Positions 11 through 18,073 of a DNA stretch of 64,000 bases are shown piece by piece. Where the stretch lies: the IMG/VR virus record IMGVR_UViG_3300010334_006426, positions 1 through 64,000 of that record. One strand, written 5' to 3'. The notes beneath the pieces were generated by a model, which saw only the letters and a program-made list of their open reading frames with translations, ran no database searches and was not told where the DNA came from. Position numbers and translations under genes: made by a program. The DNA is from a virus. Positions within the stretch are counted from its first letter, which is position 1, and every line of letters starts with the position of its first letter.

Positions 11-778
11 TCATAATCTTATTACACCTTCAGGGTATATGTCTCTATTATCATACCATTCATCTTTTATATGAAACCATTTTTCTGGCATAATAACTTT
101 TTTATTTTTGTTTTTATTAAGATAAGAGCCCCACCAACCAAAAGAAGAGGCCGAACTTATATTGTCTGTACATAGAGTAGAGAAAATAAAATCAGCATAA
201 AAGCTATTTGAATTTATAATTCTTATATTAGAGGTTTGCTTTATTTTTAATGTAGTATATGCATAGTTATCAGTCACAACAACAAATAATCTATTTTTAC
301 CAAAATATTCAAAACTCTTTTTAAGATACTCAGGATTTTCCAAAACGTCACAGTGTATATGTCTTGGATCTATTGCACCGCCTGAGTATGTACGAATCTG
401 TACACCTACCGGTTGATCTTTTAGATAATCTTTATACTTTTCATTTACTTGCTCTACCAATTCATCCGGAAACTCGAATGATTTTAATATTTTTTCTTTA
501 TTATGTTTAAAATATTTTTCTGTTTGAAAATAGCCATTTAAAGCTAAATTTGGCAGTCTTGGAATAGGTGAATAATAAAAATGTTTTTCTGTATAGCGAT
601 TAGTTATTATAGGTAGTTCATTATATGTTTTTAACTTGTTTTTAAAAACAGCATTAGCTTCAAAAGATGGAAATATAGCTTCATCGTTACAATCTATTGC
701 GTGAGATATTGTTGCCGCTATTTGAAAAAGTTGATTACCAAATCTTCCATTTTGACCTAATAAAGGATAGCAAATCAT
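11..778 (-). CDS. Glycosyltransferase family 11-like (fucosyltransferase-type)
   Basis: Complete 255-residue protein. Near the N-terminus (residues 11-19) it reads GRFGNQLFQ, matching the G-x-G-N-Q-x-F-Q signature of family 11 alpha-1,2-fucosyltransferases. Mid-protein VQIRTY sits where the family has its H-x-R-R-G-D-Y nucleotide-sugar motif, and SSFGWWGSYL near residue 215 matches the conserved S-S-F-S-W-W-G block. Both are typical of the family; the first is degenerate here. It overlaps the next gene upstream by 4 nt and is the last visible gene of a minus-strand operon of three glycosyltransferases and GMP reductase. It probably transfers a sugar to a surface glycan or another acceptor; donor and acceptor are not determinable. 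Confidence 0.75.
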   Translation of the reverse strand: MICYPLLGQNGRFGNQLFQIAATISHAIDCNDEAIFPSFEANAVFKNKLKTYNELPIITNRYTEKHFYYSPIPRLPNLALNGYFQTEKYFKHNKEKILKSFEFPDELVEQVNEKYKDYLKDQPVGVQIRTYSGGAIDPRHIHCDVLENPEYLKKSFEYFGKNRLFVVVTDNYAYTTLKIKQTSNIRIINSNSFYADFIFSTLCTDNISSASSFGWWGSYLNKNKNKKVIMPEKWFHIKDEWYDNRDIYPEGVIRL

Positions 779-2124: not shown

Positions 2125-2929
2125 ACTTCTTATGAATTTGTTTGAGAATTTTTCTTAACTTAGGTTCGGGGGTATCCTCTACAGATCCGTGCCATGCAGG
2201 ACTTACACCGTGCTTTTTCTTAAAAAGCTCCATTCCGTTTAAAATATTATCCTTCCAATCCGACCTCGGTCGAATAGAGCTACTATTTTCAGAGCATTCT
2301 ATCTCATCTAGATATTTGTGACTGTCAGCTAAATCAGCAAAATTCCAATATGGAGTAAACATACCTGATTTTGTCATTCTATAGTCATGATCTACATGTT
2401 CAAATGCATTGGTGTAATCTTCATCTAAGAGTCCAACATCCTCTAGGACCTGCTTACTATAGTAACAAAATGCCCCTACGCTATGCATGTTTATAGCTAT
2501 TTTTATCTTACCATAATCAATAACATATCTAGGTTGCGGTTCACCGCCTGAAACTCCTCCTTTATTAGCCGGGCCGTGATAACCAAAATTAAAATGCTGT
2601 ATGCCTGTGATGTTTCTAGCCTCAATATATTTTTGAAAAACGTTTGGATCTTTAACTATAATATCATCCTCAACAATAAAGATGTGATCACAGTCGCTGC
2701 CTAGTAAGTAACGAAAAAGTTTATTTTTCGATTTCCCGACACCAAGATTTGTACTATTGTGAAAATAGGTAAATGACTTTTCTTTCTGAAGTTTATCTAT
2801 ATCTTCAAAATCGCTACCATCATTAACAACTGCTAACACGGGGTTATCTGGAATAGATCTAAAGCATTTAAGAAAAAACTTAGGCCTATTACATGTAACA
2901 ATTCCAACACCTATTTTATTTGATTGCAT
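2114..2929 (-). CDS. Glycosyltransferase family 2-like protein
   Basis: A 271-residue GT-A-fold protein. IGVGIVTCNRPKFF opens the Rossmann-like nucleotide-binding half, VVNDGSD near residue 34 is a typical GT2 loop, and VEDDI near residue 85 is the D-x-D-like metal site. The region after residue 170 (YTNAFEHVDHDYRM) resembles the acceptor-side acidic motif of GT2 enzymes. This is one of the few genes here with a good Shine-Dalgarno: read on the minus strand, AAAGGTGG lies 6 nt before the ATG. Its start lies inside the end of the GMP reductase gene (14 nt overlap). Acceptor unknown. Confidence 0.75.
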   Translation of the reverse strand: MQSNKIGVGIVTCNRPKFFLKCFRSIPDNPVLAVVNDGSDFEDIDKLQKEKSFTYFHNSTNLGVGKSKNKLFRYLLGSDCDHIFIVEDDIIVKDPNVFQKYIEARNITGIQHFNFGYHGPANKGGVSGGEPQPRYVIDYGKIKIAINMHSVGAFCYYSKQVLEDVGLLDEDYTNAFEHVDHDYRMTKSGMFTPYWNFADLADSHKYLDEIECSENSSSIRPRSDWKDNILNGMELFKKKHGVSPAWHGSVEDTPEPKLRKILKQIHKKYAQ

Positions 2930-3881
2930 AAAAATCCACCTTTCTTAAATCCGATAATTGTGTACCACCACTGTAACTAATGGCAGAAGAAAGATCTTGT
3001 CGAATTTCTTCAAACTTATCTAAATACGTCATAGTGTTGTGAGGTACCTTTTTTAGTGTACCTTCTATGTGTACATTTTCCACTTTATTATGCACAGATG
3101 CTGAGCCGAAATATAATTTATATGTTTGTCCGCTTTCATCCTCAAAAACATCAGCTGGGCTATCGCTGCATTCCGCAAATAATGACCCGCACATAACCAT
3201 ATCTGCACCTGCAACTATTGCTTTAGCAATATCACCATTGCATTTTATCCCACCATCTGCAATAATTGGTATACCGATATTTTCTTGAAAGATATTCCTA
3301 ACACATGTAAACATAGGCATCGTAAAACCGGTTTTATCCTTTGTTGTACAGGCATTACCTTGACCTATACCAACCTTAACCGCATCTGCACCTGCATTCA
3401 TAAGATCTAATGCCGCGTGTGCCGTTGCAATATTACCAGCTATCAAAAACGTTTTTGGTAGCGTATTCTTTATAAACTCCACCATCCTAATACAATCATC
3501 GCTATGACCGTGAGCAATATCAATAGTAATATAGTCTATACTATAATCGCTATTCTTAATACAATTAACAAGCGATATATCTTCTTGCTTAATACCTACA
3601 CTTATTGAGGTATAGAAATTCTCTTCAATTGCTTTAGTTACAAAATATTTGTTATTGTCAAATCTGTGCATTGTGTAAAAAAATCCGTTATTAGCTAATA
3701 CTTTAGCTAGTTTTTCATCAATAGTGCACTTCATATTAGAAGGTATTACAGGCAAATTAAACGTTCTTTGACCGAGCGTTGTAGATACCTTAGCTTTAGA
3801 TCTAGACTTTAATATACCCCGGTTTGGAGTTAAAGTTATGTCACTGTAAGAATATGCAGTCTTAACTACTTCCTGTTGCAC
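2916..3881 (-). CDS. guaC: GMP reductase (Bacillus GuaC type)
   Basis: A 321-residue TIM-barrel enzyme of the IMPDH/GMPR family without CBS domains, as expected for GMP reductase (NADPH-dependent GMP to IMP plus ammonia). The catalytic Cys is residue 178 in GIGQGNACTTKDKTGF. The C-terminal half (GSLFA, YFGSAS, IEGTLKKVPH, QDLSSAISYSGG, RKVDF) follows the Bacillus-type GuaC pattern rather than IMPDH. The start is GTG; a TATAAT-rich stretch ends about 3 nt upstream, suggesting a nearly leaderless transcript. It is the first gene of an operon continuing into three glycosyltransferases. It may shift guanine nucleotides toward adenine for an AT-rich genome (inference). Confidence 0.88.
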   Translation of the reverse strand: MQQEVVKTAYSYSDITLTPNRGILKSRSKAKVSTTLGQRTFNLPVIPSNMKCTIDEKLAKVLANNGFFYTMHRFDNNKYFVTKAIEENFYTSISVGIKQEDISLVNCIKNSDYSIDYITIDIAHGHSDDCIRMVEFIKNTLPKTFLIAGNIATAHAALDLMNAGADAVKVGIGQGNACTTKDKTGFTMPMFTCVRNIFQENIGIPIIADGGIKCNGDIAKAIVAGADMVMCGSLFAECSDSPADVFEDESGQTYKLYFGSASVHNKVENVHIEGTLKKVPHNTMTYLDKFEEIRQDLSSAISYSGGTQLSDLRKVDFYAIK

Positions 3882-6005: not shown

Positions 6006-6560
6006 TCAACGGCCAATGAGCGGTTTGAATATATCCTCAAATGTTTTTGGCGGGTTGTTGAATCTATCGGGTTTTCTTAATTCAGCTTCTGTTTGTCCTT
6101 CTCTACCAAAAGGATTTGATTTTGTAGCGCCTTGTGGTATATTTTGAAAAACAATTCTATGTGTTTTAGGCGGTGAGCTTGGACGCGACAATTCTGGATA
6201 ATTTAGTTGATGTGTACCTATAGTTAAATTATCACCATTTAAATTAGCTATGCTACCCATATACGGTCCAAATAATTCATTTATATCTTGTGCCAGTTGC
6301 TGCATAGAATATTGATTTTCAGCTTGTGCTTGCTGTAAGTTTTTACCATTCTCTTGAATATAATTCATTAAATCAGAAATCATTGCTTGAAAAATAGCAT
6401 TAGAACGTTGCTGTAATTCTAAAGGATTTGCAGAATATTTTTGTTCTAAATCTTTTAGTGCTTCATCAAGAACATCCGCTTTTCTCTCCAATTCATCTCT
6501 AAACGTTTCTGCACTAGAAGATGCACCTTCTCTAAGAAAAAACTTGTTAAATGGCTTCAT
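6006..6560 (-). CDS. Internal/capsid-targeted protein candidate, unknown function
   Basis: A 184-residue protein that I do not recognise. It starts MKPFNKFFLREGAS, a leader resembling the T4 capsid-targeting sequence, with a possible prohead-protease site after E11 (L-R-E|G). Residues about 15-100 are helical and probably coiled-coil (ELERKADVLDEALKDLEQKY); the C-terminal third is Pro/Asn-rich and likely disordered. Its ATG overlaps the stop of the upstream gene (ATGA). It forms an operon with the Gly/Ala-rich membrane-type protein and the M15 peptidase, all three carrying the leader. Confidence 0.6.
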   Translation of the reverse strand: MKPFNKFFLREGASSSAETFRDELERKADVLDEALKDLEQKYSANPLELQQRSNAIFQAMISDLMNYIQENGKNLQQAQAENQYSMQQLAQDINELFGPYMGSIANLNGDNLTIGTHQLNYPELSRPSSPPKTHRIVFQNIPQGATKSNPFGREGQTEAELRKPDRFNNPPKTFEDIFKPLIGR

Positions 6561-8260
6561 TTTTTTCTTAATTTATTTACAAAGTCTAAGGTGGTATCAT
6601 ACTCTTGATCTTGTGGTTGTTGATTGTATTGTATAGGAGCAGCTTGCATAGGATTAGCAGCAGTAGCTTGCTTACCAAAAGGATCTAATACTTGTTGACC
6701 AGGTCTAATAATATTTGTAACTTCTTTATATCGTTTTGTTGCTGGATCGTATACAGCGGGAGTAACAAAAGTACCCAAGGCTGCTGCCTGCGCTGGTGTT
6801 AATACACGCCCACCAAAAGTATAGACCATATTACTTTGACCGGGTAGAGTAGGACCAGAGGAAGATTGATCATTATTACCCTCTCCTTCATCTTTCGTTT
6901 CACCACTTCTACCAGAAGTTTCTTTCATTTTTTTATCAAACCATGCATTTAAAGGGTTTATTATATTTGCAAACAATCTTGTCTGCATCTGTCTGTAAGC
7001 TTGGAACGCCGGTAACCCAACTCTAGTTAATTTCTTTACTGTCTTTTTTGCAGATTTTGCTAATCCCTTACCTACACCCTGGATAACTTCTTGCGTTGCA
7101 TTTGCAGCTTTTGTCTCAATAGATTTAGCTGCTTCCTTACTTGCAGCCTCAGCGCCAGTTTCTGCGGTTTTAGCAACTTCTTTTTCAATCTTAGCTGCCC
7201 CCTCCGCTGCTTTTAAAGCCGCACCCGGTGTTGCAATTTTATCAAAATATTTTAAATCTGGATAAACTTTTCGAATCACATCTATTACACTTGCAGGGGG
7301 TATATTGCCCATTTCTTTGCCAATGGTATGAAGATATGGCGCAACTAATGCGTCAGCCGGATTATCTACAATAAACTCAATAGCTTTTTTCACGGCACCT
7401 TCCTCACCATAAACTTCTCTAGGATTTTTTTTCATTCTTTCTCCTAGATGATAAATCTGCTTATCAACTAACTCTTTAAAGGTTTTATTTGTTTTTATGC
7501 CTTCCATTGCTGCTCGCGCGTAGTATTCTGTCCATTTAGCTACTTCCTCTGGTGATTTGCCTTCTAAACCTTTTAACGTGCCGGTTTTTGCAGTAGCCTC
7601 TAAAGTTTCTCCGGTACCTTTACCAAATGCATCAATAGCTGCTTTCTTAGCTTCTGCACCGCCTATTTTTTCAGCTGCCATTGCCATGGCTTCTGGCCCG
7701 CCCTTTGTACCTTTAACCAGCTTTAACATTTTTGTGTATATCTCCTCTATAAGCTTAGGAAATTTTGCGGCATTTTTGGTAGCATAATGGATGCTACCTC
7801 TTAACCCTATCCAACCGCCGCCGCCTATAGCAGCACCGGCTGCGGCACCAGGTATTGCGCCTACACCTGCACCAGCAGCCCCGGCTGCTGCACCTGCACC
7901 TGCGCCCATAAATAGACCCATATTTGGAACACAATTAAACAAATTTAATGCATACATCATCCAATTAAAAGTAGATGGTTTTTTTCTCCAAATAAAATAT
8001 GCTTCAATTGCATCGTCAACAGACATAAGACCTGTAGGATCTATTATTTCTACTGCTGTCATAAATATTTTACCTGCTGTACTATCTGCGTCCCCGGCTA
8101 ACCACTTTAACCCAGGAATTTTTTTACCCTTCAATGCAAATTTACCAATAGGATCAAGTATATTCTTTTCTAGTGGTTCTAAAAAATTACCTAACGATTC
8201 TAACGAACCTTCATTTAAAGGTTTATACTCATTAGCTACATATTGCTTAAACGTTTTCAT
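6557..8260 (-). CDS. Large capsid-targeted protein with Gly/Ala-rich membrane segment (ejection-protein candidate)
   Basis: A longer open frame extends upstream, but I place the start at the ATG ending at 8260. This gives MKTFKQYVANEYKPLNEG, nearly identical in style to T4 MKTYQEFIAEA, and it lies 1 nt beyond the preceding stop. The 567-residue product has a strongly hydrophobic Gly/Ala segment (about nt 7780-7910, reading GAGAGAAAGAAGAGVGAIPG) able to insert into a membrane. Long Ala/Lys/Glu-rich helical stretches and a disordered Gln/Pro-rich C-terminus follow. I infer an internal virion protein ejected with the DNA that may form a membrane channel. No family assignment is possible by eye. 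Confidence 0.6.
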   Translation of the reverse strand: MKTFKQYVANEYKPLNEGSLESLGNFLEPLEKNILDPIGKFALKGKKIPGLKWLAGDADSTAGKIFMTAVEIIDPTGLMSVDDAIEAYFIWRKKPSTFNWMMYALNLFNCVPNMGLFMGAGAGAAAGAAGAGVGAIPGAAAGAAIGGGGWIGLRGSIHYATKNAAKFPKLIEEIYTKMLKLVKGTKGGPEAMAMAAEKIGGAEAKKAAIDAFGKGTGETLEATAKTGTLKGLEGKSPEEVAKWTEYYARAAMEGIKTNKTFKELVDKQIYHLGERMKKNPREVYGEEGAVKKAIEFIVDNPADALVAPYLHTIGKEMGNIPPASVIDVIRKVYPDLKYFDKIATPGAALKAAEGAAKIEKEVAKTAETGAEAASKEAAKSIETKAANATQEVIQGVGKGLAKSAKKTVKKLTRVGLPAFQAYRQMQTRLFANIINPLNAWFDKKMKETSGRSGETKDEGEGNNDQSSSGPTLPGQSNMVYTFGGRVLTPAQAAALGTFVTPAVYDPATKRYKEVTNIIRPGQQVLDPFGKQATAANPMQAAPIQYNQQPQDQEYDTTLDFVNKLRKK

Positions 8261-8261
8261 A

Positions 8262-8885
8262 TTATCCTCTATACTCAAAGTGATGCGGGTCACCCGGAAT
8301 TTGAGCATAATACCATCCAAACTTCGGCCCGTTAGTTTGCATCCATGCATATTCAGATGTACCGCGTTGTAAATCTAGTGCATTACCTAAGCCGTGTTTA
8401 GATGATCCAGGCTTACCTACAACAGCATATTTTCCTCTTAGACCTGCTTGATGATCTGTATTTCTATATGCACTATTAATTTTTATAGGTCCACCGTAAG
8501 CTTGTTGTGCAGAAAGAAAGGCTTTTGCAGCTCTAGGTGCAAGGTATGCATCATCTTTATACCATTGAGATAAACCAGGAGCTTCAGCATCATACTTACC
8601 AACCTTAACCAAATCCTTTTGCTGCAATTGACCGTTCTTACCGCTCATTGCAACAGGAGCATTTCTAGCTGTTACTTCAGGTTTTGCTATCGGCTTTGCA
8701 GAAGGCTGAACGACAGAAGAAGTAGGCTTAGCAGTAGAAATAGCCGTCTGCGGTGTACCAGGGGCTATATTTGTTTTAGATGCGGTATTACCTGTCTGAG
8801 CAGGCCTTTTAAGCTGGGTCGTTCTAGAAGATGCACCGGAGACATCGAAATATGCTTCTTTTACAAATTTTTTGAAACTAATCAC
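8262..8885 (-). CDS. M15-type murein peptidase (D-Ala-D-Ala carboxypeptidase/endolysin-like) with capsid-targeting-like leader
   Basis: A 207-residue protein. The C-terminal half is an M15 zinc peptidase: SKHGLGNALDL (residues 162-172) matches S-x-H-x-x-G-x-A-x-D, and PHHFEY near residue 201 supplies the last zinc His. KINSAYRN before it is also typical. Residues 30-90 are a Pro/Ala/Thr/Lys linker. The start is GTG, fixed by a late box TATAAATA 4 nt upstream. The first residues MISFKKFVKEA resemble the T4 capsid-targeting leader with a V-K-E|A site. It may be a lysin, but the leader and operon suggest a packaged wall-degrading enzyme used at DNA entry (inference). Confidence 0.8.
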   Translation of the reverse strand: MISFKKFVKEAYFDVSGASSRTTQLKRPAQTGNTASKTNIAPGTPQTAISTAKPTSSVVQPSAKPIAKPEVTARNAPVAMSGKNGQLQQKDLVKVGKYDAEAPGLSQWYKDDAYLAPRAAKAFLSAQQAYGGPIKINSAYRNTDHQAGLRGKYAVVGKPGSSKHGLGNALDLQRGTSEYAWMQTNGPKFGWYYAQIPGDPHHFEYRG

Positions 8886-8889
8886 ATAT

Positions 8890-8897
8890 TATTTATA
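8890..8897 (-). promoter_or_regulatory. Late promoter box TATAAATA
   Basis: Exact T4 late consensus on the minus strand, ending 4 nt before the GTG of the M15 peptidase gene. It probably drives the three-gene operon down to 6006. Confidence 0.75.
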
Positions 8898-8947
8898 TTC
8901 AATACAGGTAATGTATTAGAATATATAAGTCTATCAAATAAAATGAC

Positions 8948-9145
8948 TTATCTATTGATAACTGAGGCTAGTCTGGATTTAAACTGCTCTACAAACTTTT
9001 CTACAAAACTATCTAGAGCTTTATTGCCAGCTTCTATGCCATTATTCTTAATAATATTAGTTAGCTGGTCTTGATTGAGAAGAACTCTCCAGGATTCTTT
9101 GCCACCATTTTCACCAGTAATATTGACATCGATATTAATATTCAT
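8948..9145 (-). CDS. Small protein, unknown function
   Basis: A 65-residue protein that I do not recognise. The N-terminus (MNINIDVNITGENGG) looks like a beta-hairpin and the rest (residues 25-62) an amphipathic helix. No clear late box or Shine-Dalgarno was seen upstream. It sits between the late M15 operon and queE, in the same orientation. Confidence 0.45.
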   Translation of the reverse strand: MNINIDVNITGENGGKESWRVLLNQDQLTNIIKNNGIEAGNKALDSFVEKFVEQFKSRLASVINR

Positions 9146-9178
9146 AAAACAATTTAATTAAAAACAATATAAATGCAA

Positions 9179-9925
9179 CTACACCTTTAATGCTTTATCC
9201 CAAATTACAAGTTGTAGCCTAGGACTAAACTTTAAATCATGCTTTTTACATAATTCTGCAACCATTGCCGCCTTATTTGTATGTTCTGTCCTACTACCAC
9301 AACATGGCATTAACCATACCCTATGCTTAGGTACTAATACATCAGGATGTTCGATGTACTTTCGATATACTTCATCTAAATCTCTTAGATCATTAATCAC
9401 AAATTTAAAGCCTGAACCCGCCCTAACGTGCCATCTGAGGACGGTAGGTTTATATCTTTTTTCTTCTGAATCACCATTATTCGATAGCTTTGGCGAAGTT
9501 GTATATGTAGCTTGATATACTGACCATTCATCTAATGGCTGTATAGTTGCATTTGTTTCGAAATCAATTTTAGGTATAAACCCATTTCTCTTAGAAAACT
9601 CTCTTACTAGCTCCAATAAAGCTTTCTGCTGGATAAGAGGTTCACCGCCAGTAATCTTCCATATTGCTCCATCACGTAAATGCTTTGTGTGTCCTTCATT
9701 GTCTAATATATCAAGAATATCATTAACTGTAAAACGGTTTTTTACGGACCAACTGACAAAACTATCACAACCATGAGGTGAATCAGCTGATGCAAACCCC
9801 TTGCAAGTTAAATTACACATTGAAACTCGCATGAAAACTGAGGGCATGCCCGCATATTCTCCTTCACCTTCAATAGTATAAAAAATCTTATCATCGCTTA
9901 AGAAAATAATAGGTTGCTCACTCAT
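9179..9925 (-). CDS. queE: 7-carboxy-7-deazaguanine synthase (QueE), radical SAM
   Basis: A 248-residue radical SAM protein. FYTIEGEGEYAGMPSVF near the N-terminus is the substrate-proximal QueE motif (I-Q-G-E-G family position). Cluster cysteines C37, C41 and C53 give C-x3-C-x11-C rather than the common C-x3-C-x2-C; such spaced clusters are known in the QueE family. ITGGEPLIQQ near residue 92 is the SAM-binding GGEP motif. It converts carboxy-tetrahydropterin to CDG in preQ0 synthesis. QueD is encoded 0.8 kb away on the same strand, separated by plus-strand phoH. The upstream region has an early-type AT-rich element rather than a late box. Confidence 0.88.
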   Translation of the reverse strand: MSEQPIIFLSDDKIFYTIEGEGEYAGMPSVFMRVSMCNLTCKGFASADSPHGCDSFVSWSVKNRFTVNDILDILDNEGHTKHLRDGAIWKITGGEPLIQQKALLELVREFSKRNGFIPKIDFETNATIQPLDEWSVYQATYTTSPKLSNNGDSEEKRYKPTVLRWHVRAGSGFKFVINDLRDLDEVYRKYIEHPDVLVPKHRVWLMPCCGSRTEHTNKAAMVAELCKKHDLKFSPRLQLVIWDKALKV

Positions 9926-9961
9926 TATTAATATAATATATGCTTTATTCGGTTATTCAAG
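9926..9961. promoter_or_regulatory. Divergent early-type promoter region (queE / phoH)
   Basis: An AT-rich stretch between two divergent starts. Read on the minus strand, ATATTATATTAATA ends at the queE ATG. This is one of a group of ATATTAT-type elements abutting start codons of early-class genes here. Confidence 0.35.
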
Positions 9962-9969
9962 AATAAATA
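9962..9969 (+). promoter_or_regulatory. Possible late promoter box AATAAATA before phoH
   Basis: NATAAATA match ending 7 nt before the phoH ATG. It is embedded in AT-rich sequence, so it is weaker evidence than the boxes at structural genes. Confidence 0.35.
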
Positions 9970-9976
9970 TATATAG

Positions 9977-10720
9977 ATGTCGAAAAAAGACAGACAGCTC
10001 AAAAAAGCTGCAAAATTTGATAAAAGCGGTAGCGATTTATTAAAGTCGGATATTTTTCTTAATTTCAAAATAGATCAAAAGTTTCATTTTAACGATAGGC
10101 ATAAAGCTTTTGTTGAGAAAGCAAGTGACCCTAACTCCCAAATAATATTTTGCGATGGACCTGCAGGTTCTTCTAAGACTTATTGTGCAGTATATGTTGC
10201 GTTGACTATGTTAAAAGAACGTAAGATTGATGAAATATTCTACATTAGAAGTATCGTTGAATCTGCGACTCGAAAGCTAGGAAGCTTACCCGGAGAAGTA
10301 GATGAAAAGTTTAAGCCCTGGAGTATACCACTAATTGAAAAATGTGACGAGCTTGTTGGTAAGCAAACAACAAATGTTTTATTTGAAAGTGAGTATATTA
10401 AGTCAATACCAGTAAACTTTCTTCGTGGCTCAACTTTTGCTAATTCCGTGGTTATTGTTGATGAAGCCCAAAATTTAGAGCACAGCGAACTTGTCACAAT
10501 ATTAACTAGATTTGGTAGAAACTGTAAGTTATTTGTTATTGGCGATGCGAGACAATCAGATATTTTTGACAAATCTGGCTTTAAAAAGATTATGAATGTA
10601 TTTGATACTGATGAAAGCAGTGCCCATGGTATACACTCATTTCATTTCACCGAGGACGATATAACTAGAAGTAAGCTACTTAAATATATTGTTAAAGTTA
10701 TAAGTACAATCAAAAAATAA
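9977..10720 (+). CDS. phoH: PhoH-like P-loop ATPase
   Basis: A 247-residue PhoH-family ATPase. Walker A is GPAGSSKT (residues 61-68), the RSIVES / RKLGSLPGEVDEKFKPW block is the family signature, and VVIVDEAQNL near residue 157 is Walker B. FVIGDARQSD near 190 is the sensor-like G-D-x-x-Q motif. PhoH proteins are very common in marine T4-like phages; the role is unsettled (an RNA- or phosphate-stress-related ATPase/helicase has been proposed). Its stop abuts the end of queD, which lies convergently. Confidence 0.88.
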   Translation: MSKKDRQLKKAAKFDKSGSDLLKSDIFLNFKIDQKFHFNDRHKAFVEKASDPNSQIIFCDGPAGSSKTYCAVYVALTMLKERKIDEIFYIRSIVESATRKLGSLPGEVDEKFKPWSIPLIEKCDELVGKQTTNVLFESEYIKSIPVNFLRGSTFANSVVIVDEAQNLEHSELVTILTRFGRNCKLFVIGDARQSDIFDKSGFKKIMNVFDTDESSAHGIHSFHFTEDDITRSKLLKYIVKVISTIKK

Positions 10721-11359
10721 TTACATACCCCAGCTAGTACCGCCAAATGGATTTGACCAACCTGTTGTAACGTTGTTACCCACTGTTGTACGTGCTGGTA
10801 ACGAGGCATTACCAGTGCTACTATCTACCTTTACATTCTCGACAGGCTTTTGATCAAACGGAAGCTCAAATTGCTCTGCATATACTTTAGCTGTATGTTT
10901 ATCACATGAACACTTACGACTCTCCGCAGAGACGATTGCAGAATTTTTATCATGCTCCCAAACTTCAACCTTTTGTACCCAACATCTATTGTTTGTTATG
11001 CCTCTTACATGTGCATCAGCCACATCAAAACACCAGTCTGCTGTTCTTTCAATGCCCACACCTTTATGCATAATTCTAAGATCTGCTGCACCGGCATCAT
11101 GCAAAGCTTTAAATTGATCTAACAATGGGTCATCTGCAGAAACACAAAATGTATGGTCAAATTGTTTTTCTAAAACTTGCTTGAGTTCCTTTAATCCACC
11201 AAAATCTACAACCCAATTTCTTTCATCCAGTCTATCACATGCAAACCAAAATTTTGCTACTAACCTGTAACCATGTATTAATTTGCAATGACTATCTGCT
11301 CTCCATTGCCTAAATGCACAACTACCTAATTCAATTATCTTTGTACTCTCAAATTGCAT
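10721..11359 (-). CDS. queD: QueD-like 6-carboxy-tetrahydropterin synthase
   Basis: A 212-residue member of the 6-pyruvoyl-tetrahydropterin synthase/QueD fold. Recognisable blocks are CAFRQWRADSHCKLIHGY (residues 14-31), VVDFGGLK (about 50), DHTF (about 68) and a later GIERTADWC. Compared with ordinary QueD, the HGH zinc motif reads HGY and the usual A-A-H ligand is replaced by F-R-Q-W, while C25 and H29 remain. About 40 C-terminal residues are extra and low-complexity. It would convert dihydroneopterin triphosphate to carboxy-tetrahydropterin between FolE and QueE. The altered metal site makes the exact reaction less certain. Confidence 0.78.
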   Translation of the reverse strand: MQFESTKIIELGSCAFRQWRADSHCKLIHGYRLVAKFWFACDRLDERNWVVDFGGLKELKQVLEKQFDHTFCVSADDPLLDQFKALHDAGAADLRIMHKGVGIERTADWCFDVADAHVRGITNNRCWVQKVEVWEHDKNSAIVSAESRKCSCDKHTAKVYAEQFELPFDQKPVENVKVDSSTGNASLPARTTVGNNVTTGWSNPFGGTSWGM

Positions 11360-11394
11360 ATGTTTATATTAATATGCAAATACGGCTAATCAAG

Positions 11395-11709
11395 TTATTT
11401 CTTTTGATTTGCCTTGCAGTCCGTACAACCATCACAATCACAGCCTTCTGCAGCATACTTACAGTGTTCTTCTGTAACTAATTTGAAACTATAATACTTT
11501 TCAAGATATGTTGAAACGGCACCATCAAAACTCTCACTTGTTTTGGTCTTACCTGCATTATTCAATGCTATAGCAGCCGCTTGCTTCTGTGCAGCTTCCT
11601 TGCTAGCAGGCTTTGAAGAACCTATCTTACCTTTAGCTTTGTAACTATTCATTAATTCAGAAATATTTTTACCTACTGTTTGTGCTGATGATCCGGGGTT
11701 TAATGGCAT
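11395..11709 (-). CDS. Small late protein with Cys-rich tail
   Basis: A 104-residue protein. The segment from residue about 27 to 55 (GKIGSSKPASKEAAQKQAAA then IALNNAGK) resembles a Lys/Ser/Ala motif found in many small phage proteins that end a stretch with Q-A-x-A-I-A-L; the function of that family is unknown. The C-terminus has a compact Cys cluster (HCKYAAEGCDCDGCTDC) that could bind a metal. A late promoter box 5 nt upstream marks it as a late gene. Packaging of a small metal-binding protein is possible but unsupported. Confidence 0.5.
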   Translation of the reverse strand: MPLNPGSSAQTVGKNISELMNSYKAKGKIGSSKPASKEAAQKQAAAIALNNAGKTKTSESFDGAVSTYLEKYYSFKLVTEEHCKYAAEGCDCDGCTDCKANQKK

Positions 11710-11714
11710 AATAA

Positions 11715-11722
11715 TATTTATA
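11715..11722 (-). promoter_or_regulatory. Late promoter box TATAAATA
   Basis: Exact late consensus ending 5 nt before the ATG at 11709 (minus strand). Confidence 0.7.
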
Positions 11723-12974
11723 TTAAATTAACACCTTTTAATTCTTTTAAAACAAATATAATAGGCTTAGTCGACTTTTTAATTTGCGGCAACTCTGCAA
11801 GTTTTTGCATAACTTTATCAAATTTATCTAGATTTCTATCTTTATTTGGTAATATTTTGTCAGAAATTTTATTTACCATATCGCCTAAATCATCTGGCAG
11901 GTTATTTGCAAGCAATTCTTCTAATGCCTTTCTAACAGTCTGTCTTACTTCGTCTTGAATAGTCTGTAAGGATATTTTACCCTCTTGATCTGTAATTCTA
12001 TTTAGAACTGAAATGATTTTACTTCCTTGATAATCCATAACCTTTGCATTGTAATATCTATCTTGTTCTTTTATTTTTTTAAATTTAATAATTAATATAC
12101 CTTTTTGCTCGGGATTGCCTAGAACTGCAAAATCTAAGCTTAAATCTATTTCCCTAGCTAGTTCAGTAGGCTCTAGTTCTATAATTTGGTTAACTTTTCT
12201 TCTACCTTCGAAAATACCTTTAGTGGTCATTCCTGAAGCCTGGTACTCCACCACCCCGTGCTTCATAGTCTTTAAGCCTTTAAGAGGTAAATTTTTTACA
12301 TAAATAGTATCGCCTTCCCTAACACCAGTAGGATATTCTTTTGACTTAGCTTTTCCATATCTGTCTACATCTACTAAATCATTAGGATTTAATGTTCTTA
12401 TAAATTTACCCAATTTACCTATAAAATTATTTTTACCTACAACAAACTTAGGAATACTAGAATAGGCTGATACGGCTTTGCCCGCTAAATTGCCTGCTGT
12501 TTTTAATAAATCGATAGGTGATAATCCTGGTATTAAATCTACTCCACTTTCATTTTGTAATATATTCTTATAAAAAGCCTTTAATTTTTCACTTTCATAA
12601 CCTAGTTCTTTTAAATAGGTTTCTATAAATTCATCGTTATTACTATTGAGAATATTTTTATAGCTAGGATTATCTTTGTTGATATTATTTTTCTGCAAAG
12701 CAGTTAAGATTTTTTTTTTGAAATTATCGAATGATGGTTTTTCTTGTACCGGTTCTATATGCTTCTTATCAACAGTCTGAATAGGTTCTATATTACTAGG
12801 GACATTTAATACATATACTTCAACAGTGTCAATACTTTCTGATAATATATAGCCTTCAAAGCTAGATACATTCTCATAGCCAAATGTAGATAGCTGTGAC
12901 GGGTCTACCTTAATTCTAACTTTCTTGAGCTTAGTTTGACCTAATGCTCTTTCAATTAAACCATCTACACGCAT
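11718..12974 (-). CDS. Late protein of unknown function, N-terminal small beta-domain
   Basis: A 418-residue protein that I do not recognise. Residues 17-58 (KVRIKVDPSQLSTFGYENVS and on to VEVYVLNV) look like a small beta-barrel, residues 80-140 are helical, and residues about 205-330 look beta-rich with repeated Ile/Val/Lys strands. The C-terminal 60 residues are helical and basic. A GATAAATA box ends 4 nt before its ATG, so it is a late, probably virion-associated, gene. It ends 9 nt from the start of the next minus-strand gene. Confidence 0.5.
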   Translation of the reverse strand: MRVDGLIERALGQTKLKKVRIKVDPSQLSTFGYENVSSFEGYILSESIDTVEVYVLNVPSNIEPIQTVDKKHIEPVQEKPSFDNFKKKILTALQKNNINKDNPSYKNILNSNNDEFIETYLKELGYESEKLKAFYKNILQNESGVDLIPGLSPIDLLKTAGNLAGKAVSAYSSIPKFVVGKNNFIGKLGKFIRTLNPNDLVDVDRYGKAKSKEYPTGVREGDTIYVKNLPLKGLKTMKHGVVEYQASGMTTKGIFEGRRKVNQIIELEPTELAREIDLSLDFAVLGNPEQKGILIIKFKKIKEQDRYYNAKVMDYQGSKIISVLNRITDQEGKISLQTIQDEVRQTVRKALEELLANNLPDDLGDMVNKISDKILPNKDRNLDKFDKVMQKLAELPQIKKSTKPIIFVLKELKGVNLI

Positions 12975-12978
12975 ATGT

Positions 12979-12986
12979 TATTTATC
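12979..12986 (-). promoter_or_regulatory. Late promoter box GATAAATA
   Basis: NATAAATA form on the minus strand, ending 4 nt before the ATG at 12974. The same box and spacer (ACAT) recur on the plus strand at 47439. Confidence 0.65.
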
Positions 12987-13020
12987 CTTGATTAACCATG
13001 TTTATAACTTATAATAATGT

Positions 13021-13677
13021 ATGGTTAAAAAACGTAATTTACAATTTGCAAATCACAATCACCCAGTAAACGAGCAAGAAAAACAAGAGATTATAGATAA
13101 AGCGGCTAAAGCCTATGAATCTTACATGGATGCTCTTGGCTATGATTGGAGAAATGATCCGAACAGCGCTAATACACCACATAGGGTTGCTAAGGCTTTC
13201 GTAGAGGATTTTGCCTGGGGATGTTATAGTGAACCTCCTAAGATCACAGCATTTGATAATATAGATAAGTATGATGGCATAGTTGCGCAGACTAATATCA
13301 AAGTTACTTCTCTGTGCTCTCATCATCATGCACCTTTTACAGGTTTTGCACATGTCGCATATATCCCATCTAAAAATGGAAAGGTTATTGGGTTGAGTAA
13401 GCTTAATAGAATAGTTGATTGGTTCTCGCGTAGACCACAAGTTCAAGAAAACTTAACAATGCAAATACACGATTATATCGATACAGTTTGTGAAAAGAAT
13501 AATGGCGTTGCAGTTATGATTGAAGCAGGACATACTTGTTGCTCCAATAGAGGTATCAGGCATGACTCTACTATGCGTACGGCTAGAATGTCAGGGGCCT
13601 TTCTAGACAATAAAGATAACTCTAGGGCCGAGTTTTACAAGTTTGTTGAGTTTGCACAAAATAGAAAACTTACCTGA
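13021..13677 (+). CDS. folE: GTP cyclohydrolase I (FolE)
   Basis: A 218-residue FolE of normal length. SLCSHHHAPFTG (residues about 98-109) provides Cys and His zinc ligands, and HTCCSNRG near residue 177 provides the second Cys. TPHRVAKAFVED near residue 50 and IGLSKLNRIVDWFSRRPQVQ near 125 are the GTP-binding blocks. It makes dihydroneopterin triphosphate from GTP, the entry to both folate and 7-deazaguanine synthesis. With QueD, QueE and QueC in the same genome the deazaguanine route is the likely purpose. An early-type TATAATAATG sequence directly precedes the start. Confidence 0.93.
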   Translation: MVKKRNLQFANHNHPVNEQEKQEIIDKAAKAYESYMDALGYDWRNDPNSANTPHRVAKAFVEDFAWGCYSEPPKITAFDNIDKYDGIVAQTNIKVTSLCSHHHAPFTGFAHVAYIPSKNGKVIGLSKLNRIVDWFSRRPQVQENLTMQIHDYIDTVCEKNNGVAVMIEAGHTCCSNRGIRHDSTMRTARMSGAFLDNKDNSRAEFYKFVEFAQNRKLT

Positions 13678-13698
13678 CTAAATAATTAGTGTAATCTC

Positions 13699-14007
13699 AT
13701 CATAAAAGGTGAGCTCACTGTTCCACCTTCCAGCATTTCTTGCGTTAGGGATTTAGTATTTTTTTCCCATGAATACTGTAACTATAATGTTTTAATAGAA
13801 TCTGATAATAAAGATAAATGTTACGATAGATTAAAAAAGTTTGGTGTAATGGATTATGTAGAGGACATCTTAACAGAAAATGAAGAGGAAGGATTGAGAA
13901 TAGATAATAATTTTAATTACTCACCCACAATCTGTATGGTTAAATTTATTAAAGTAGAGAATATACACTACATTTTACATTCAATAGGCTTTAACGGTTT
14001 ATATTAA
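13699..14007 (+). CDS. Unrecognised coding frame lacking a standard start codon
   Basis: This region looks empty, but one plus-strand frame is open from 13690 to the stop at 14005-14007 (105 codons). It translates to protein-like sequence (GELTVPPSISCVRDLVFFSH, later DRLKKFGVMDYVEDIL and FIKVENIHYILHSIGFNGLY). No ATG, GTG or TTG lies near its beginning; the earliest candidates are ATC at 13699 and ATA at 13702. It overlaps the convergent protease gene by 17 nt, as real genes do here. Either a non-standard start is used, the N-terminus was lost, or there is a sequence change. The same frame runs back to folE through two stops. Confidence 0.4.
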   Translation: MIKGELTVPPSSISCVRDLVFFSHEYCNYNVLIESDNKDKCYDRLKKFGVMDYVEDILTENEEEGLRIDNNFNYSPTICMVKFIKVENIHYILHSIGFNGLY

Positions 14008-14395
14008 TATTCACAACACCGCCATTTTGCTTTATAAATTCTTCACCCAATAGTACAGGAGTGTCGTTTTCACTTCTATCAGCAAGACTAAATGGCACAC
14101 CGTTAAATTGTTCTTTACCTAAACTACAATCTAATTTTACTACAGGTCTATCTTCTTTATTGCCGCTACCTATGTGAATGTATACTCTATCTGCGACAGG
14201 CAGTGTTAATCTTTTATCATTTACTGTTGTAAAAGTGACCTTGTCATTCTTTTCCTCTAGATCTAAAGCATGCAATACATTATAAGCACTATTCCCCGTA
14301 TCTACTTTAGCTTTAACAGTTCCTATATGCTGTAAAGTTATACCTTCTGTTAGACCAAGTATTTGTTCGTAAAAAAATTGTTTAAACGTAACCAT
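13991..14395 (-). CDS. Retropepsin-like aspartic protease with capsid-targeting-like leader
   Basis: A 134-residue protein. Residues 27-41 (TVKAKVDTGNSAYNV) carry the D-T-G catalytic triad motif in the context A-K-x-D-T-G that is typical of retropepsin-like proteins related to the RimK-associated zinc/aspartic protease group. The second hallmark VLLGEEF (about residue 113) matches the hydrophobic-hydrophobic-G-x-[DE]-F pattern. The N-terminus MVTFKQFFYEQ resembles the T4 capsid-targeting leader. A late box lies 9 nt upstream. It could act as a dimeric protease in the capsid or after ejection. The Asn after DTG, where many family members have Ala, is slightly unusual. Confidence 0.65.
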   Translation of the reverse strand: MVTFKQFFYEQILGLTEGITLQHIGTVKAKVDTGNSAYNVLHALDLEEKNDKVTFTTVNDKRLTLPVADRVYIHIGSGNKEDRPVVKLDCSLGKEQFNGVPFSLADRSENDTPVLLGEEFIKQNGGVVNININR

Positions 14396-14404
14396 ATAAT
14401 ATAG

Positions 14405-14412
14405 TATTTATT
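14405..14412 (-). promoter_or_regulatory. Late promoter box AATAAATA
   Basis: Minus-strand box 9 nt before the protease ATG, back-to-back with a plus-strand late box only 2 nt away. Confidence 0.5.
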
Positions 14413-14414
14413 AC

Positions 14415-14422
14415 TATAAATA
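14415..14422 (+). promoter_or_regulatory. Late promoter box TATAAATA
   Basis: Exact consensus 6 nt before the ATG at 14429. Confidence 0.65.
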
Positions 14423-14428
14423 ATAATA

Positions 14429-14947
14429 ATGAGCGAAAAAAAAGAAGTATTGAATATAACGGAAGCTTATAAAAAGATTGTTATAAATGAATTAGGCGGC
14501 TCAACTCCAGGGGACGGAGTCAGCACGGTACCCGCTCCGCAACATTCTTCTGTTGTTGCAATAAAAAATGAAGAGGAAATATCGCCTAGAGAAGTAGAAA
14601 CGGGCGAAACCGGCTCAGATATGGCTAAAGGTGAATTATACAAACTACATAAAGATGCTAAGGACTTATATAATTTAATATCTTCATGTGAAAATTTAGA
14701 ACCATGGATTTTTAGCAAAATAACTGTTGCCGCTAGTTATATTCAAGGGGTAAAAAATTATTTAGAATATGATAATTTTAAGAAAAAAGGAGAGTTTACC
14801 CCTGAAGCCGGAGGACATGAAGATCTTGTTGCAATGAAAGTGAAGGACATGCTAAATGGAGAGAGTCGTGAAGTTGTTGAGAAGGTTTTACGTCAAGCAA
14901 TATTTAATTTAGAAGCTATACAAGCGCTAGAAGAAGTTAAGCAATAG
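14429..14947 (+). CDS. Late protein, unknown function
   Basis: A 172-residue protein. The N-terminal 70 residues are polar and likely disordered. Residues about 73-115 (ELYKLHKDAKDLYNLIS, WIFSKITVAASYI) form a helical module that I recall as recurring in T4-like marine phage proteins of unknown function. The early segment ITEAYKKIVINE may be another leader with an I-N-E site, but it is less like the T4 leader. It is transcribed from an exact late box and overlaps the end of the convergent ligase-like gene by 11 nt. Not recognised further. Confidence 0.5.
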   Translation: MSEKKEVLNITEAYKKIVINELGGSTPGDGVSTVPAPQHSSVVAIKNEEEISPREVETGETGSDMAKGELYKLHKDAKDLYNLISSCENLEPWIFSKITVAASYIQGVKNYLEYDNFKKKGEFTPEAGGHEDLVAMKVKDMLNGESREVVEKVLRQAIFNLEAIQALEEVKQ

Positions 14948-16262
14948 TTCTTCTCGGGCCACCAAATTGTCTATTAATTTTAGTAAACTCTAATCTGTCT
15001 ACTAATTTAACATGATTAGTACCAACAAATAATACAATTCCTTCATCTTTTGTCGGGGTAAAAGAGCCATCAGCATTTTGTATAAATGTTTTGCCTACTT
15101 TTGATTCTAACGTAGCTAGCGCTTGCAGTAATAAATTCTTAGCACGTGCCATGTGAAATGTACCTGTAATTAAATTCAAAAAATTTTCTTTATTTTGCTC
15201 TAAAAACGATAGCACACTATTCATTCTTAATTCGATATTATGTTTACCAGTAGGTGTTTTTTTTGATTCTTGTTCTTTCGTATATCTTGAAGCAATAAAT
15301 TGCCTCAAACCGTCAATAAATTTGTCTATAAAAAACTCCTCTCCTCTAGCGGCGGCACCAAAAATACCTTGTGGTGCAATATCTACCTGTTTGTTTAAAT
15401 ATATTTTTAATAATGACAGAATAGGATTAGTTAGGTATTCGGCATTAAACTGCTGTGATATATTTCCAATATATAACTTAGCTTTACTTGCTTCAGCATT
15501 TATTTTTTTTAAAAGATCATCCGAAATATTAACAGATAAAGAACTAAAATTACTACTCTGAATAAACGCTTTAGATTTTACGCTGCTGGATATTAATGAG
15601 TCAACGTTTCTACCTTGCGAGATTAGCTCTATACCACCAGTACTAGTAGGTTTACCCTTAAATGATTCATGAACTATAATGCCAACTTCTGAATTACTTA
15701 CTCTATTAGATAATGGACTCTTCGAATCTACAGGAACTGCATAAGCAATTATATTTGGCTTAAAAGTAATAAAATTCTCTTCCCCAATCTTTACAATTTT
15801 TTTATCTTTTGGAAGTGCAAATAATACATCAGCTTGATATATTTTGCCAGACCCGTCATAGGCCTGCCTCAAATATTTAAGTAAATTTTTTAATTTATTT
15901 TCTAGTTCAGGCTTATCGCCATAAAAAAGATTAACCTCAGAATCAGCATGCATTATTTTTGGATTTGCTTGACTCAATCCGCCTTTAAGTGATATAAAAA
16001 ACTGATTTTTAAATTGTGATCTCGGATCAATACCAAATAGAATCATTGGACTGCCATCTATTTTTGCATTCATTTCTTGGTTCGTTTCAAAGCCTTTTAT
16101 TTTTTTGTTTATTTCATCTATATGTTGAATAAAATTTTCAAACCCTTCTTTACCATTTTCAATTGCTAAATCTTCTAAATGAGATAAATGTGTTTTTAAG
16201 TGTGCATCACTTTCTATTATTACTTTTTTTTCTTCTTGAATAAAATTTATAAAAGAGTTCAT
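14937..16262 (-). CDS. Ligase/capping-type nucleotidyltransferase-like protein with capsid-targeting-like leader
   Basis: A 441-residue protein. AKIDGSP (K67) matches motif I (K-x-D-G) of the covalent nucleotidyltransferase superfamily of DNA/RNA ligases and capping enzymes. IYQADVLF could be motif III, ITFKPNIIAYAV motif IIIa, DEGIVLF (E407) motif IV and VKLVDR (K419) motif V, in the right order. The spacing between motifs is long. I recall similar K-x-D-G-[AS]-P proteins of unknown function in T4-like cyanophages. The N-terminus MNSFINFIQEE resembles the capsid leader. Its ATG overlaps the stop of the HxGH nucleotidyltransferase gene, so the two are co-expressed. Ligase activity is inferred. 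Confidence 0.6.
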   Translation of the reverse strand: MNSFINFIQEEKKVIIESDAHLKTHLSHLEDLAIENGKEGFENFIQHIDEINKKIKGFETNQEMNAKIDGSPMILFGIDPRSQFKNQFFISLKGGLSQANPKIMHADSEVNLFYGDKPELENKLKNLLKYLRQAYDGSGKIYQADVLFALPKDKKIVKIGEENFITFKPNIIAYAVPVDSKSPLSNRVSNSEVGIIVHESFKGKPTSTGGIELISQGRNVDSLISSSVKSKAFIQSSNFSSLSVNISDDLLKKINAEASKAKLYIGNISQQFNAEYLTNPILSLLKIYLNKQVDIAPQGIFGAAARGEEFFIDKFIDGLRQFIASRYTKEQESKKTPTGKHNIELRMNSVLSFLEQNKENFLNLITGTFHMARAKNLLLQALATLESKVGKTFIQNADGSFTPTKDEGIVLFVGTNHVKLVDRLEFTKINRQFGGPRRTIA

Positions 16263-16894
16263 TTTTTTAATCTTTCGTAAACTTTTGCCATATCTTCCTT
16301 TGTAATCGGTGGTAAAAACTTCTTAAACAAATCAAAATTATTTTTGCTTAAAGCTTCTCTAGCTTTTGTCGCTGATGTTAATCTAGATACTTCTTTTTGA
16401 TTTATACTCTTGACCTCTTTACCGCTAAACACAGATGCGTTTTGATTCTTAAAAAAGGCGCTATATCTATCTTGTGCATCTTCTTGACTAGCGTATAAAT
16501 TTATTGAATAAGGTCCTTTAGTTTTCTGCTGTATCAAAGACACTACTTCCTGAGCTTTTGGATGAGGTGCTTGCGATCTGGGTGTGGGTGTAAATCTACC
16601 ATTATTAAGAATATCTGCAATATGGTAAACCGCTAAAACAGGCGACCCTGAGGTTAGTATAAAATTAATATTTTTAGGTAAATATGTTTTGTACATATTC
16701 CATATATCTAGAGATTGTTGAGATGTAATATTATCCCTATCTATAGCAGATATAAGTACAAACACCATGTTATTCTCGAGACAGGCCTTTTTTACTGTAT
16801 CAAAATGCCCTTTGTGTGGGGGTTTAAACGCACCAGGAAATACACCTATAGAGGTTTCCGCGGACTCGATTAAAAACTGTCTAAACGTTTTCAT
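16259..16894 (-). CDS. HxGH nucleotidyltransferase (cytidylyltransferase/NMNAT-like) with capsid-targeting-like leader
   Basis: A 211-residue protein. GVFPGAFKPPHKGH (residues 17-30) is the nucleotide-binding H-x-G-H motif of the cytidylyltransferase/adenylyltransferase superfamily. SRLTSATKAREAL (about residue 170) corresponds to the second signature I-S-[ST]-T-x-x-R. The first ten residues MKTFRQFLIE differ little from T4 MKTYQEFIAE and precede a Ser, a plausible cleavage site. It starts directly after the stop of the upstream gene (no gap) and overlaps the K-x-D-G gene by 4 nt. The nucleotide substrate (NMN, glycerol-3-phosphate or other) is unknown. Confidence 0.72.
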   Translation of the reverse strand: MKTFRQFLIESAETSIGVFPGAFKPPHKGHFDTVKKACLENNMVFVLISAIDRDNITSQQSLDIWNMYKTYLPKNINFILTSGSPVLAVYHIADILNNGRFTPTPRSQAPHPKAQEVVSLIQQKTKGPYSINLYASQEDAQDRYSAFFKNQNASVFSGKEVKSINQKEVSRLTSATKAREALSKNNFDLFKKFLPPITKEDMAKVYERLKK

Positions 16895-18073
16895 TTAGAG
16901 ATTCTTCAGCGGTTCTTTTAAGCCTATCTTAGGCGCGCCAGCACTAATCTGATTTGCATAAATAAATTCGCCTAATCTTTCTTTTGGAATATAAACAAAT
17001 ACATCTGAATTAACTATAAAAAGACCAGTTTCAGGAAAAGTATTAAAAATAACGTTTGTCAATGCAGTACGTATTTCCTCCAGTCCTTGAGCTAAATTTA
17101 AACTTTTTATGGTTTGTTTAAACGAATCTTGATTAGTACATTTTTTAAACAGCCTGCATTGTTTTTGTGTAATGGACCTATCTATGTTTCTAGCTTCTTT
17201 TTCAAAAAAATCTTTTTCCTGCTGATCATCTGCATTTATTTTATAATTCTTCAATATTGTATCGTACAAATCTTTTATATTGGTATTGTTTCCGCCAGGT
17301 GTAGTAGTTGTAACAACATCATTTAATACGTCAGCAAACTGTTTTAACGAAAAAATTAATGCAGGCCGGAGTTTATAATGACCTAGCGCTAGTTTATCGC
17401 CTAATAAAATTCCTTGAGACAGCTCCACGTTTGACTTGCTAAGAATAGTATGTATGTATTTGTCTATTGTCCAGCCCTCCAGACGGTCTTGATACTGAGG
17501 TCCAACAGCTATTCGAGTAATAGGGTTTTTTATTATGGCATCGTTAATAGCGGCCTTACTACTATCATCCATAGAATCATATGCTCTTAACACTTCATCT
17601 AAAAATCCATTTACGGCGTTTATTACTTGTGTTGCTGCCTGCTTACCGTTAGTGCCTGTACGAACTGTTTTTGTTTTCTTACCTTCCTTATCAGTAACAA
17701 TTTTAATTTCCTTAACTTCATAATGACCGCCATCTGGAGCTAAAACGTCAAAGCTAACCCCGGAACCCTGTATAATACTAAATGAACGTCTTTTAAATTC
17801 CGCAGCTTTATGGGCCTCTAACCGCCTAAGAGCATCATAAGAACTAACACCCCAAAATATACAAGCAAGACTATACTCACCTCTACCTACTCCGCCGTCT
17901 ATTGTATTAAAAAGCTCAGTTGGGTTTGCAAGATTAAATTCTGTCCATTTGTACTGCCTGCCAGGCTCAAATGCATTGGTTTGTTCTAATAAAACTTGCC
18001 GTCTTGGTAGAGGCGGTATAGGCCTGAACATGACCTGTTCTGTATATAGACAGTTTAAACTCTTGTAGTCCAC
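16895..18073 (-). CDS. Late protein with possible PD-(D/E)XK nuclease motif
   Basis: A 392-residue protein without a recognised family. Residues about 60-125 contain GRGEYSLACIFWG, then SFDVLAPDGGHYEVKEIK, an arrangement E...D...E-x-K compatible with a PD-(D/E)XK nuclease core. The rest is mixed helical. The start is GTG, chosen because a CATAAATA late box ends 4 nt before it; an in-frame Met 15 codons on would give MFRPIPPLPRRQVLLEQ, which also holds a possible L-L-E|Q site. It heads an operon with the two nucleotidyltransferases. The nuclease reading is tentative. Confidence 0.5.
   Translation of the reverse strand: MDYKSLNCLYTEQVMFRPIPPLPRRQVLLEQTNAFEPGRQYKWTEFNLANPTELFNTIDGGVGRGEYSLACIFWGVSSYDALRRLEAHKAAEFKRRSFSIIQGSGVSFDVLAPDGGHYEVKEIKIVTDKEGKKTKTVRTGTNGKQAATQVINAVNGFLDEVLRAYDSMDDSSKAAINDAIIKNPITRIAVGPQYQDRLEGWTIDKYIHTILSKSNVELSQGILLGDKLALGHYKLRPALIFSLKQFADVLNDVVTTTTPGGNNTNIKDLYDTILKNYKINADDQQEKDFFEKEARNIDRSITQKQCRLFKKCTNQDSFKQTIKSLNLAQGLEEIRTALTNVIFNTFPETGLFIVNSDVFVYIPKERLGEFIYANQISAGAPKIGLKEPLKNL

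Follow-up and report, generated by a model that had tools for sequence, protein, structure and literature searches.

Results

Two overlapping genes with leader-like starts in a T4-like virus

The window analysed here is the whole stretch of 64,000 nt at positions 1–64,000 of IMGVR_UViG_3300010334_006426, a record of 105,140 bases in full. The virus is T4-like: UvsY, UvsW, a late sigma factor, gp46/47, the gp43 polymerase and UvsX are encoded within the window, and a T4-type head protease (phrog_207, 6e-58; locus L100) and a T4-type major capsid protein (phrog_138, 1e-83) are found further along the record. A gene for an HxGH adenylyltransferase-like protein and, directly behind it, a gene for a DUF6267 protein lie on the minus strand (Table 1). 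Both open reading frames, their motifs and the overlap joining them had been reported in the initial annotation of this DNA and were confirmed; the plus strand reads TCAT where the two genes meet, so that stop and start share ATGA on the coding strand. Purifying selection acts on both genes, with a dN/dS of ~0.1 in comparisons with close relatives, whose synonymous sites are near saturation.

Table 1 Positions of the gene pair, its leaders and its neighbours in the window
Feature	Position	Strand	Family or basis
DUF6267 protein, 441 aa	14937-16262	-	PF19782; proposed covalent nucleotidyltransferase / ligase catalytic subunit
HxGH adenylyltransferase-like protein, 211 aa	16259-16894	-	TIGR00125; NMNAT/PPAT type
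ATGA stop/start overlap, 4 nt, transferase then DUF6267	16259-16262	-	Sequence
Leader MKTFRQFLIE of adenylyltransferase	16865-16894	-	Compared with T4 IpI/IpII/IpIII
Leader MNSFINFIQE of DUF6267 protein	16233-16262	-	Compared with T4 IPs; relatives MNSFVQFLKN, MNSFITFLKQ, MNTFKNFLGQ
Leader-bearing neighbour (MVTFKQFFYEQ)	13991-14395	-	PF05618 'Zn_protease' / aspartyl-protease-like; adjoins pair in relatives too
Gene directly upstream of pair	16895-18073	-	No family match; 90% identity in L008, ~24-26% in L009/L018

Elsewhere in the window we noted QueE, QueD, a FolE-type GTP cyclohydrolase (recognised from its sequence by eye) and QueC with an adjacent glutamine amidotransferase, at 9179-9925(-), 10721-11359(-), 13021-13677(+) and 31202-32620(+), a 7-deazaguanine synthesis set that suggests modified phage DNA. 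The left end (11-3881(-)) is occupied by a glycosyltransferase cluster with a dehydrogenase.

DUF6267 carries the ordered motifs of covalent nucleotidyltransferases

The larger protein matches PF19782 with an E-value of 2.2e-57 (195.6 bits against a cut-off of 27; profile positions 2-371 of 376) and PHROG 455 with 1.5e-27, two families that carry no assigned function, and the profile search gave no other family above threshold. Its K-x-D-G, E-G-I-V and K-x-V elements had been taken in the initial annotation for ligase/capping-enzyme motifs, and they proved to stand in the proper order and to be invariant across homologues. AKIDGSP (residues 66-72), YQADVLF (142-148), EGIV (407-410) and VKLVDR (418-423) supply motif I (K67-x-D-G), motif III (Q143-x-D145), motif IV (E407-G) and motif V (K419...R423), with K93 as motif Ia and an N-terminal HxxHxED element (H25, H28, E30, D31) ahead of them. 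The family-wide forms are K-x-D-G, a basic Ia, Q-[GA]-D, E-G-[FY]-V and K-[LI]-V-[DN]-R.

Throughout a set of 15 homologues, 11 of them distant (24-28% identity, found with tblastn) and three close (found by pattern scan), K67, D69, G70, K93, D145, E407, G408, K419, R423 and the HxxHxED element are invariant; the proposed motif lysine, Lys67, is thus kept in the close homologues. The invariance of K67, D69, G70, K93, D145, E407, G408 and K419 holds in a 72-row alignment, in which that of motifs I and Ia is partly built in because two of the IMG/VR search patterns contained both; motifs III, IV and V, and the members found with tblastn, are free of this bias. A helical segment of ~150 residues separates motifs III and IV, and an OB-fold or other substrate domain was not recognised. 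Short forms of ~300 aa (P-SSM4, S-RIM2, S-TIM4 and others), encoded at the same genomic place, are without ~100 residues, much of this helical part, and keep every motif, as expected of a catalytic core.

A single-protein search also returned 11 DUF6267 loci in cellular genomes, all of them in marine MAGs whose taxa are mixed and contradict one another; we take these loci for phage contigs that were binned with cells. The S-PM2 gene is split in AJ630128 (L001), whereas LN828717 has it in one piece and joined to the transferase. We discounted the split as a probable sequencing frameshift, since there is one match in LN828717 and a fused protein of 591 aa is present in the structure database.

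A tentative resemblance of the predicted fold to ligases

AlphaFold models were obtained with a pLDDT of 89.4 for the window protein and 90.1 for a canonical relative (L076). When the L076 model was compared with the PDB by Foldseek, ranks 1-7 were all DNA ligases (human LigIV at E 0.018 and probability 0.82, Thermococcus DNA ligases at probability 0.60-0.66), and by manual count 27 of the best 50 matches were ligases or a capping enzyme (8p4a). The first four matches of the window protein were T4 RNA ligase 2 (twice), human LigIV and a Naegleria RNA ligase, and among viral models the first named match, past DUF6267 relatives and one unnamed match, was again RNA ligase 2. Comparison of a predicted structure with DNA and RNA ligases had been proposed in the initial annotation; the matches are mostly ligases and the predicted fold appears to resemble them, at similarities that for both models stay short of E < 0.001 and at low TM-scores (~0.2), which we ascribe, without proof, to the helical insert.

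Comparison of profiles gave a suggestive result. Among 14 profiles compared by HHalign, T4 Rnl1 came first (P 0.006; non-ligase profiles, 0.14-0.51), with its motifs IV-V in register with those of DUF6267; the matches to Rnl2, in register at motif I, and to DNA ligases were not significant. A profile of the short forms alone brought no gain in this comparison, and phmmer/hmmsearch against PDB sequences gave no match.

Set against known enzymes, DUF6267 shares with the ATP-dependent DNA ligases (PF01068; T4 gp30, LigIV, Thermococcus) motifs I, Ia, III, IV and V in order, the best Foldseek matches, and the role that would be expected in a T4-like replication cluster. It differs from them in having no sequence-level match and a large helical insert, in keeping any DNA-binding domain outside the chain (possibly in DUF6433), and in its Asp in motif III and K-x-V in motif V. 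Ligases have Glu in motif III, and their motif V is usually K-x-K or K-x-D. With T4 Rnl1 (PF09511) and Rnl2 (PF09414) it shares EGYVA followed ~12 residues on by K-x-V, and they provide the best HHalign and some of the top Foldseek matches, but its scores are far below the family thresholds, and the helical insert and the linked adenylyltransferase set it apart. NAD+-dependent LigA (PF01653) likewise has a conserved N-terminal element before the core, and the partner may provide an NMN/NAD+ link to that enzyme; there is, however, no PF01653 match, and HxxHxED need not be related to the LigA Ia domain. Taking motifs and models together, DUF6267 is very probably a member, if a very divergent one, of the covalent-nucleotidyltransferase (ligase/capping) superfamily.

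The partner is of the adenylyltransferase type

The smaller protein carries PPHKGH at residues 25-30 and SATKAR near its C-terminus, and matches TIGR00125 above the cut-off (1.6e-6) and a PHROG cytidyltransferase (1.6e-9). By profile matches, its nearest solved structures are PPAT and NMNAT, not cytidylyltransferases. It had been introduced as a cytidylyl/adenylyltransferase; the adenylyltransferase type stands, and as judged from the sequence the protein is closer to NMNAT/PPAT than to the cytidylyltransferases. The scores do not go as far as supporting NMN specificity, since PPAT models score equally well and the protein is below the equivalog cut-offs of both NMNAT (TIGR01526, 23.4 bits against 341) and PPAT (TIGR01510, 24.5 against 103). 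The HxGH and SATK/ISGTK motifs are shared with the cyanophage 'cytitidyltransferase'/NMNAT (T4-like GC 190, phrog_395/3041) and with NMNAT/NadR/NadM, from which the window protein differs by an insert of its own near residues 100-130.

DUF6267 and the transferase are linked or fused throughout T4-like cyanophages

We found the partner, by the same profile, in all 16 DUF6267-bearing genomes tested, fused to DUF6267 or within ~1.2 kb of it in 13, among them every one of the 11 named isolates that were looked at first; S-CREM2 and S-SCSM1 are exceptions in which the two genes are far apart. DUF6267 precedes the transferase in the fusions of L031/L047 and L048/L024/L094 and follows it in L082, while in L089 (1043 aa) a HAD-like domain stands between the transferase and DUF6267. 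Fusion thus seems to have occurred at least three times, in both orders, in events that look independent, and PHROG 455 itself spans DUF6267 and transferase parts. Among phage records DUF6267 occurs in 466 and the transferase in 547, with near-equal numbers per cyanophage group. The pair is not peculiar to this phage but near-universal in T4-like cyanophages, where it is annotated as 'hypothetical' and 'cytitidyltransferase', and most cyanophage DUF6267 genes sit between replication genes, with UvsX, gp41 and MazG nearby.

The HxGH transferase was also seen in other contexts. In L029 (5447-8584, 1045 aa) it is fused to a RimK ATP-grasp and to PF05618, the family that adjoins the pair in the window; in L036 (5229-7211) it stands behind a longer N-terminal part holding a Pol-beta nucleotidyltransferase domain, and L050, L063 and L083 have a similar longer N-terminal part.

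Most DUF6267-bearing cyanophages have no recognisable ligase

Homologues of the T4 g30 ligase were not found in cyanomyoviruses in an earlier study, whose authors considered either that distant homologues had gone unidentified or that the gene is truly absent, and preferred absence (PMC2984593). In our searches, 10 of the 11 named DUF6267 genomes gave no match to PF01068, PF01653, PF09414 or PF09511, with T4 as a control scoring for PF01068 and PF09511. Six further cyanophages, all of which carry DUF6267, gave no match to PF01068 (T4 again being positive, and itself without DUF6267), PF01653 had no match in any of 16 genomes, and none of the four families was matched in the 105-kb fragment of the window's own genome. 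DUF6267 and a normal ligase do occur together in DLP6, Vibrio phage EniLVp02 and three IMG/VR genomes, which speaks against DUF6267 as a simple replacement. Nearly all tested T4-like cyanophages have DUF6267 and no recognisable ligase, and most have DUF6433 as well.

DUF6433 enters through a 2021 survey, in which most subgroup 2.1 jumbo phages were without a ligase and had a stand-alone ligase DNA-binding domain, exemplified by AAX44695.1 of P-SSM2 (PMC7824862). This protein is Pfam DUF6433 (PSSM2_317, L168:38440-39063), and the published claim was reproduced here, because the whole DUF6433 profile can be aligned to the N-terminal domain found in ATP-dependent ligases (P 2e-4; score 35, where other families reach no more than 20). 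DUF6433 is present in 13 named DUF6267 genomes, absent in T4, widespread in cyanophages and their kin (L173-L184), and was not found in the window's genome, an incomplete 105-kb fragment. Within the open-access literature we found no paper linking DUF6267 to the missing cyanophage ligase.

Leaders mark some lineages and would predict packaging there

Both proteins begin with a leader-like sequence, as the initial annotation had pointed out, and these starts indeed resemble those of the T4 internal proteins (MKTYQEFIAE in IpII and IpIII, MKTFKEF in IpI, from the T4 record), which share the form MK(T/S)(F/Y)xxF(I/L)xE; the leader here is on predicted enzymes, whereas the T4 IPs are small inhibitors. 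A loose leader pattern was met in 47 of 91 DUF6267 proteins and 25 of 46 partners, compared with 55 of 524 other open reading frames of the same loci, and is thus about five times commoner in each of the two; Fisher p-values exaggerate this difference, because the rows are related to one another. A T4-type leader and a gp21-type protease are both found in this genome.

The other leader-bearing open reading frames of the window are likewise encoded on the minus strand, within 6006-16894. They include 6006-6560(-), 6557-8350(-) (at an internal start) and 8262-8885(-) (with a weak M15/VanY peptidase match), which together with the PF05618 protein beside the pair are candidate injected proteins.

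The cyanophage transferase has been reported in virions of several cyanophages, among them S-SCSM1, S-SZBM1 and S-CREM2 (PMC9602691, PMC9146016, PMC10665884). The partners found in these three virions all bear the leader (MKSFLQFLKEAAE, MRFRQFIIEAVA and MKNFSSFLTEADE, respectively), whereas the DUF6267 proteins of the same phages are leaderless and absent from the three published virion lists (PMC9602691, PMC9146016, PMC10665884): S-SZBM1 has no 397-aa entry, S-CREM2 gp87 is outside the table and S-SCSM1 gp115 is unmarked as a virion protein. The leader therefore seems to predict packaging, and in the window's lineage it would predict packaging of both proteins. In two of the three proteome papers the authors considered both that the virion carries the transferase into the cell and that the protein is only a co-purifying one. 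Injection had been put forward as a property of the pair. Because most cyanophage DUF6267 proteins are leaderless and these are unlisted in the three proteomes, we dropped the reading of the pair as a generally injected module; the leader, and hence injection, belongs to some lineages only.

Discussion

We favour, with some reserve, the reading that DUF6267 is the catalytic subunit of a ligase in T4-like marine phages and that its partner makes or regenerates the nucleotide donor. The data show the genes, their motifs and conservation, a similarity of the predicted fold, linkage and fusions, the leaders and the lack of known ligases; catalysis, an NAD+ donor, a DNA substrate and packaging in this phage are what we infer. 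Lys67 would accept AMP and transfer it to a 5'-phosphate end, to be sealed in the next step, the substrate most likely being DNA. The partner probably makes the adenylate donor for DUF6267, and its adenylyltransferase-like nature suggests NAD+ as the link. If the donor is NAD+, each cycle would release NMN, which the partner could turn back to NAD+ with ATP; such recycling is suggested by linkage and fusion, and would in turn account for the close operon arrangement and for the recurrence of fusion. Most cyanophages would make the enzyme in the cell, from within the replication cluster, and DUF6433, a separate protein, may supply the DNA-binding domain. In the window's lineage both proteins would instead enter the head, lose their leaders to the prohead protease and be delivered by injection, so that they could act at once on incoming DNA or on cell RNA. 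Taken as a whole, a split ligase with DUF6267 as catalytic part, DUF6433 as DNA-binding part and an NMNAT-type enzyme, in one operon or chain with DUF6267, to regenerate NAD+, packed in the head and injected in some lineages, is a rather unlikely combination. The initial annotation had left the target open among DNA, RNA and protein; the nucleotidyltransferase kind that it proposed survives the two checks set there, on the fold and on the motif Lys, and of the possible activities ligation, in replication or repair, is judged the most likely.

T4 Rnl1 and Pnkp form an RNA-repair counter to tRNA restriction, and DUF6267 could similarly be the RNA ligase of an RNA-repair cassette that counters such restriction, not a replicative DNA ligase. 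We hold this to be unlikely but deserving of weight. The spacing and wording of motifs IV-V (EGYVA...KLVDR) are closest to T4 Rnl1, phages with a normal DNA ligase keep DUF6267, and a leader with early injection would suit counter-defence; moreover, the HAD-like domain of L089 has a weak polynucleotide-kinase match, and in L036 the partner shares a chain with a Pol-beta nucleotidyltransferase, a kind of enzyme known to accompany RNA ligases (PMC7824862). On the other hand, the cyanophage gene lies beside UvsX, gp41 and MazG, the canonical member has DNA ligases as its best Foldseek matches, and DUF6433 co-occurs with DUF6267, all of which speak against an RNA ligase.

It is also conceivable, if improbable, that the likeness is one of fold, and that DUF6267, though able to bind a nucleotide or NAD+, no longer carries out ligase chemistry and instead assists the adenylyltransferase, structurally or as a regulator, in supplying NAD+ during infection. 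The Asp for Glu in motif III and the atypical motif V would fit this, as would the published assignment of the virion partner to NAD+ metabolism (PMC9602691, PMC10665884). Against it, Lys67, Glu407 and Lys419 are invariant in 72 of 72 sequences and kept in the 300-aa forms, which argues for catalysis. That DUF6267 modifies something else (NAD/GMP capping of RNA or NMPylation of protein) with a donor made by the partner, as the capping enzyme 8p4a among the Foldseek matches, the RimK ATP-grasp and PF05618 fusion of L029 and a leader compatible with a virion effector like T4 Alt might suggest, is about as improbable; ligases far outnumber capping enzymes in both Foldseek searches and no triphosphatase or methyltransferase partner was seen.

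A catalytic subunit of a ligase thus remains our preferred reading of DUF6267, and the wider result is a stronger point than the motifs and leaders first noted: a near-universal protein that may be the ligase missing from T4-like marine phages, with an adenylyltransferase beside it or in one chain. Few viruses are as abundant as the T4-like cyanophages. If the reading is true, the published ligase gap would be closed by a protein with ligase motifs that nearly all of them encode and that has gone unannotated, and the 'NMNAT/cytidylyltransferase' of their virions, just as widespread and so far unexplained, would have a reason.
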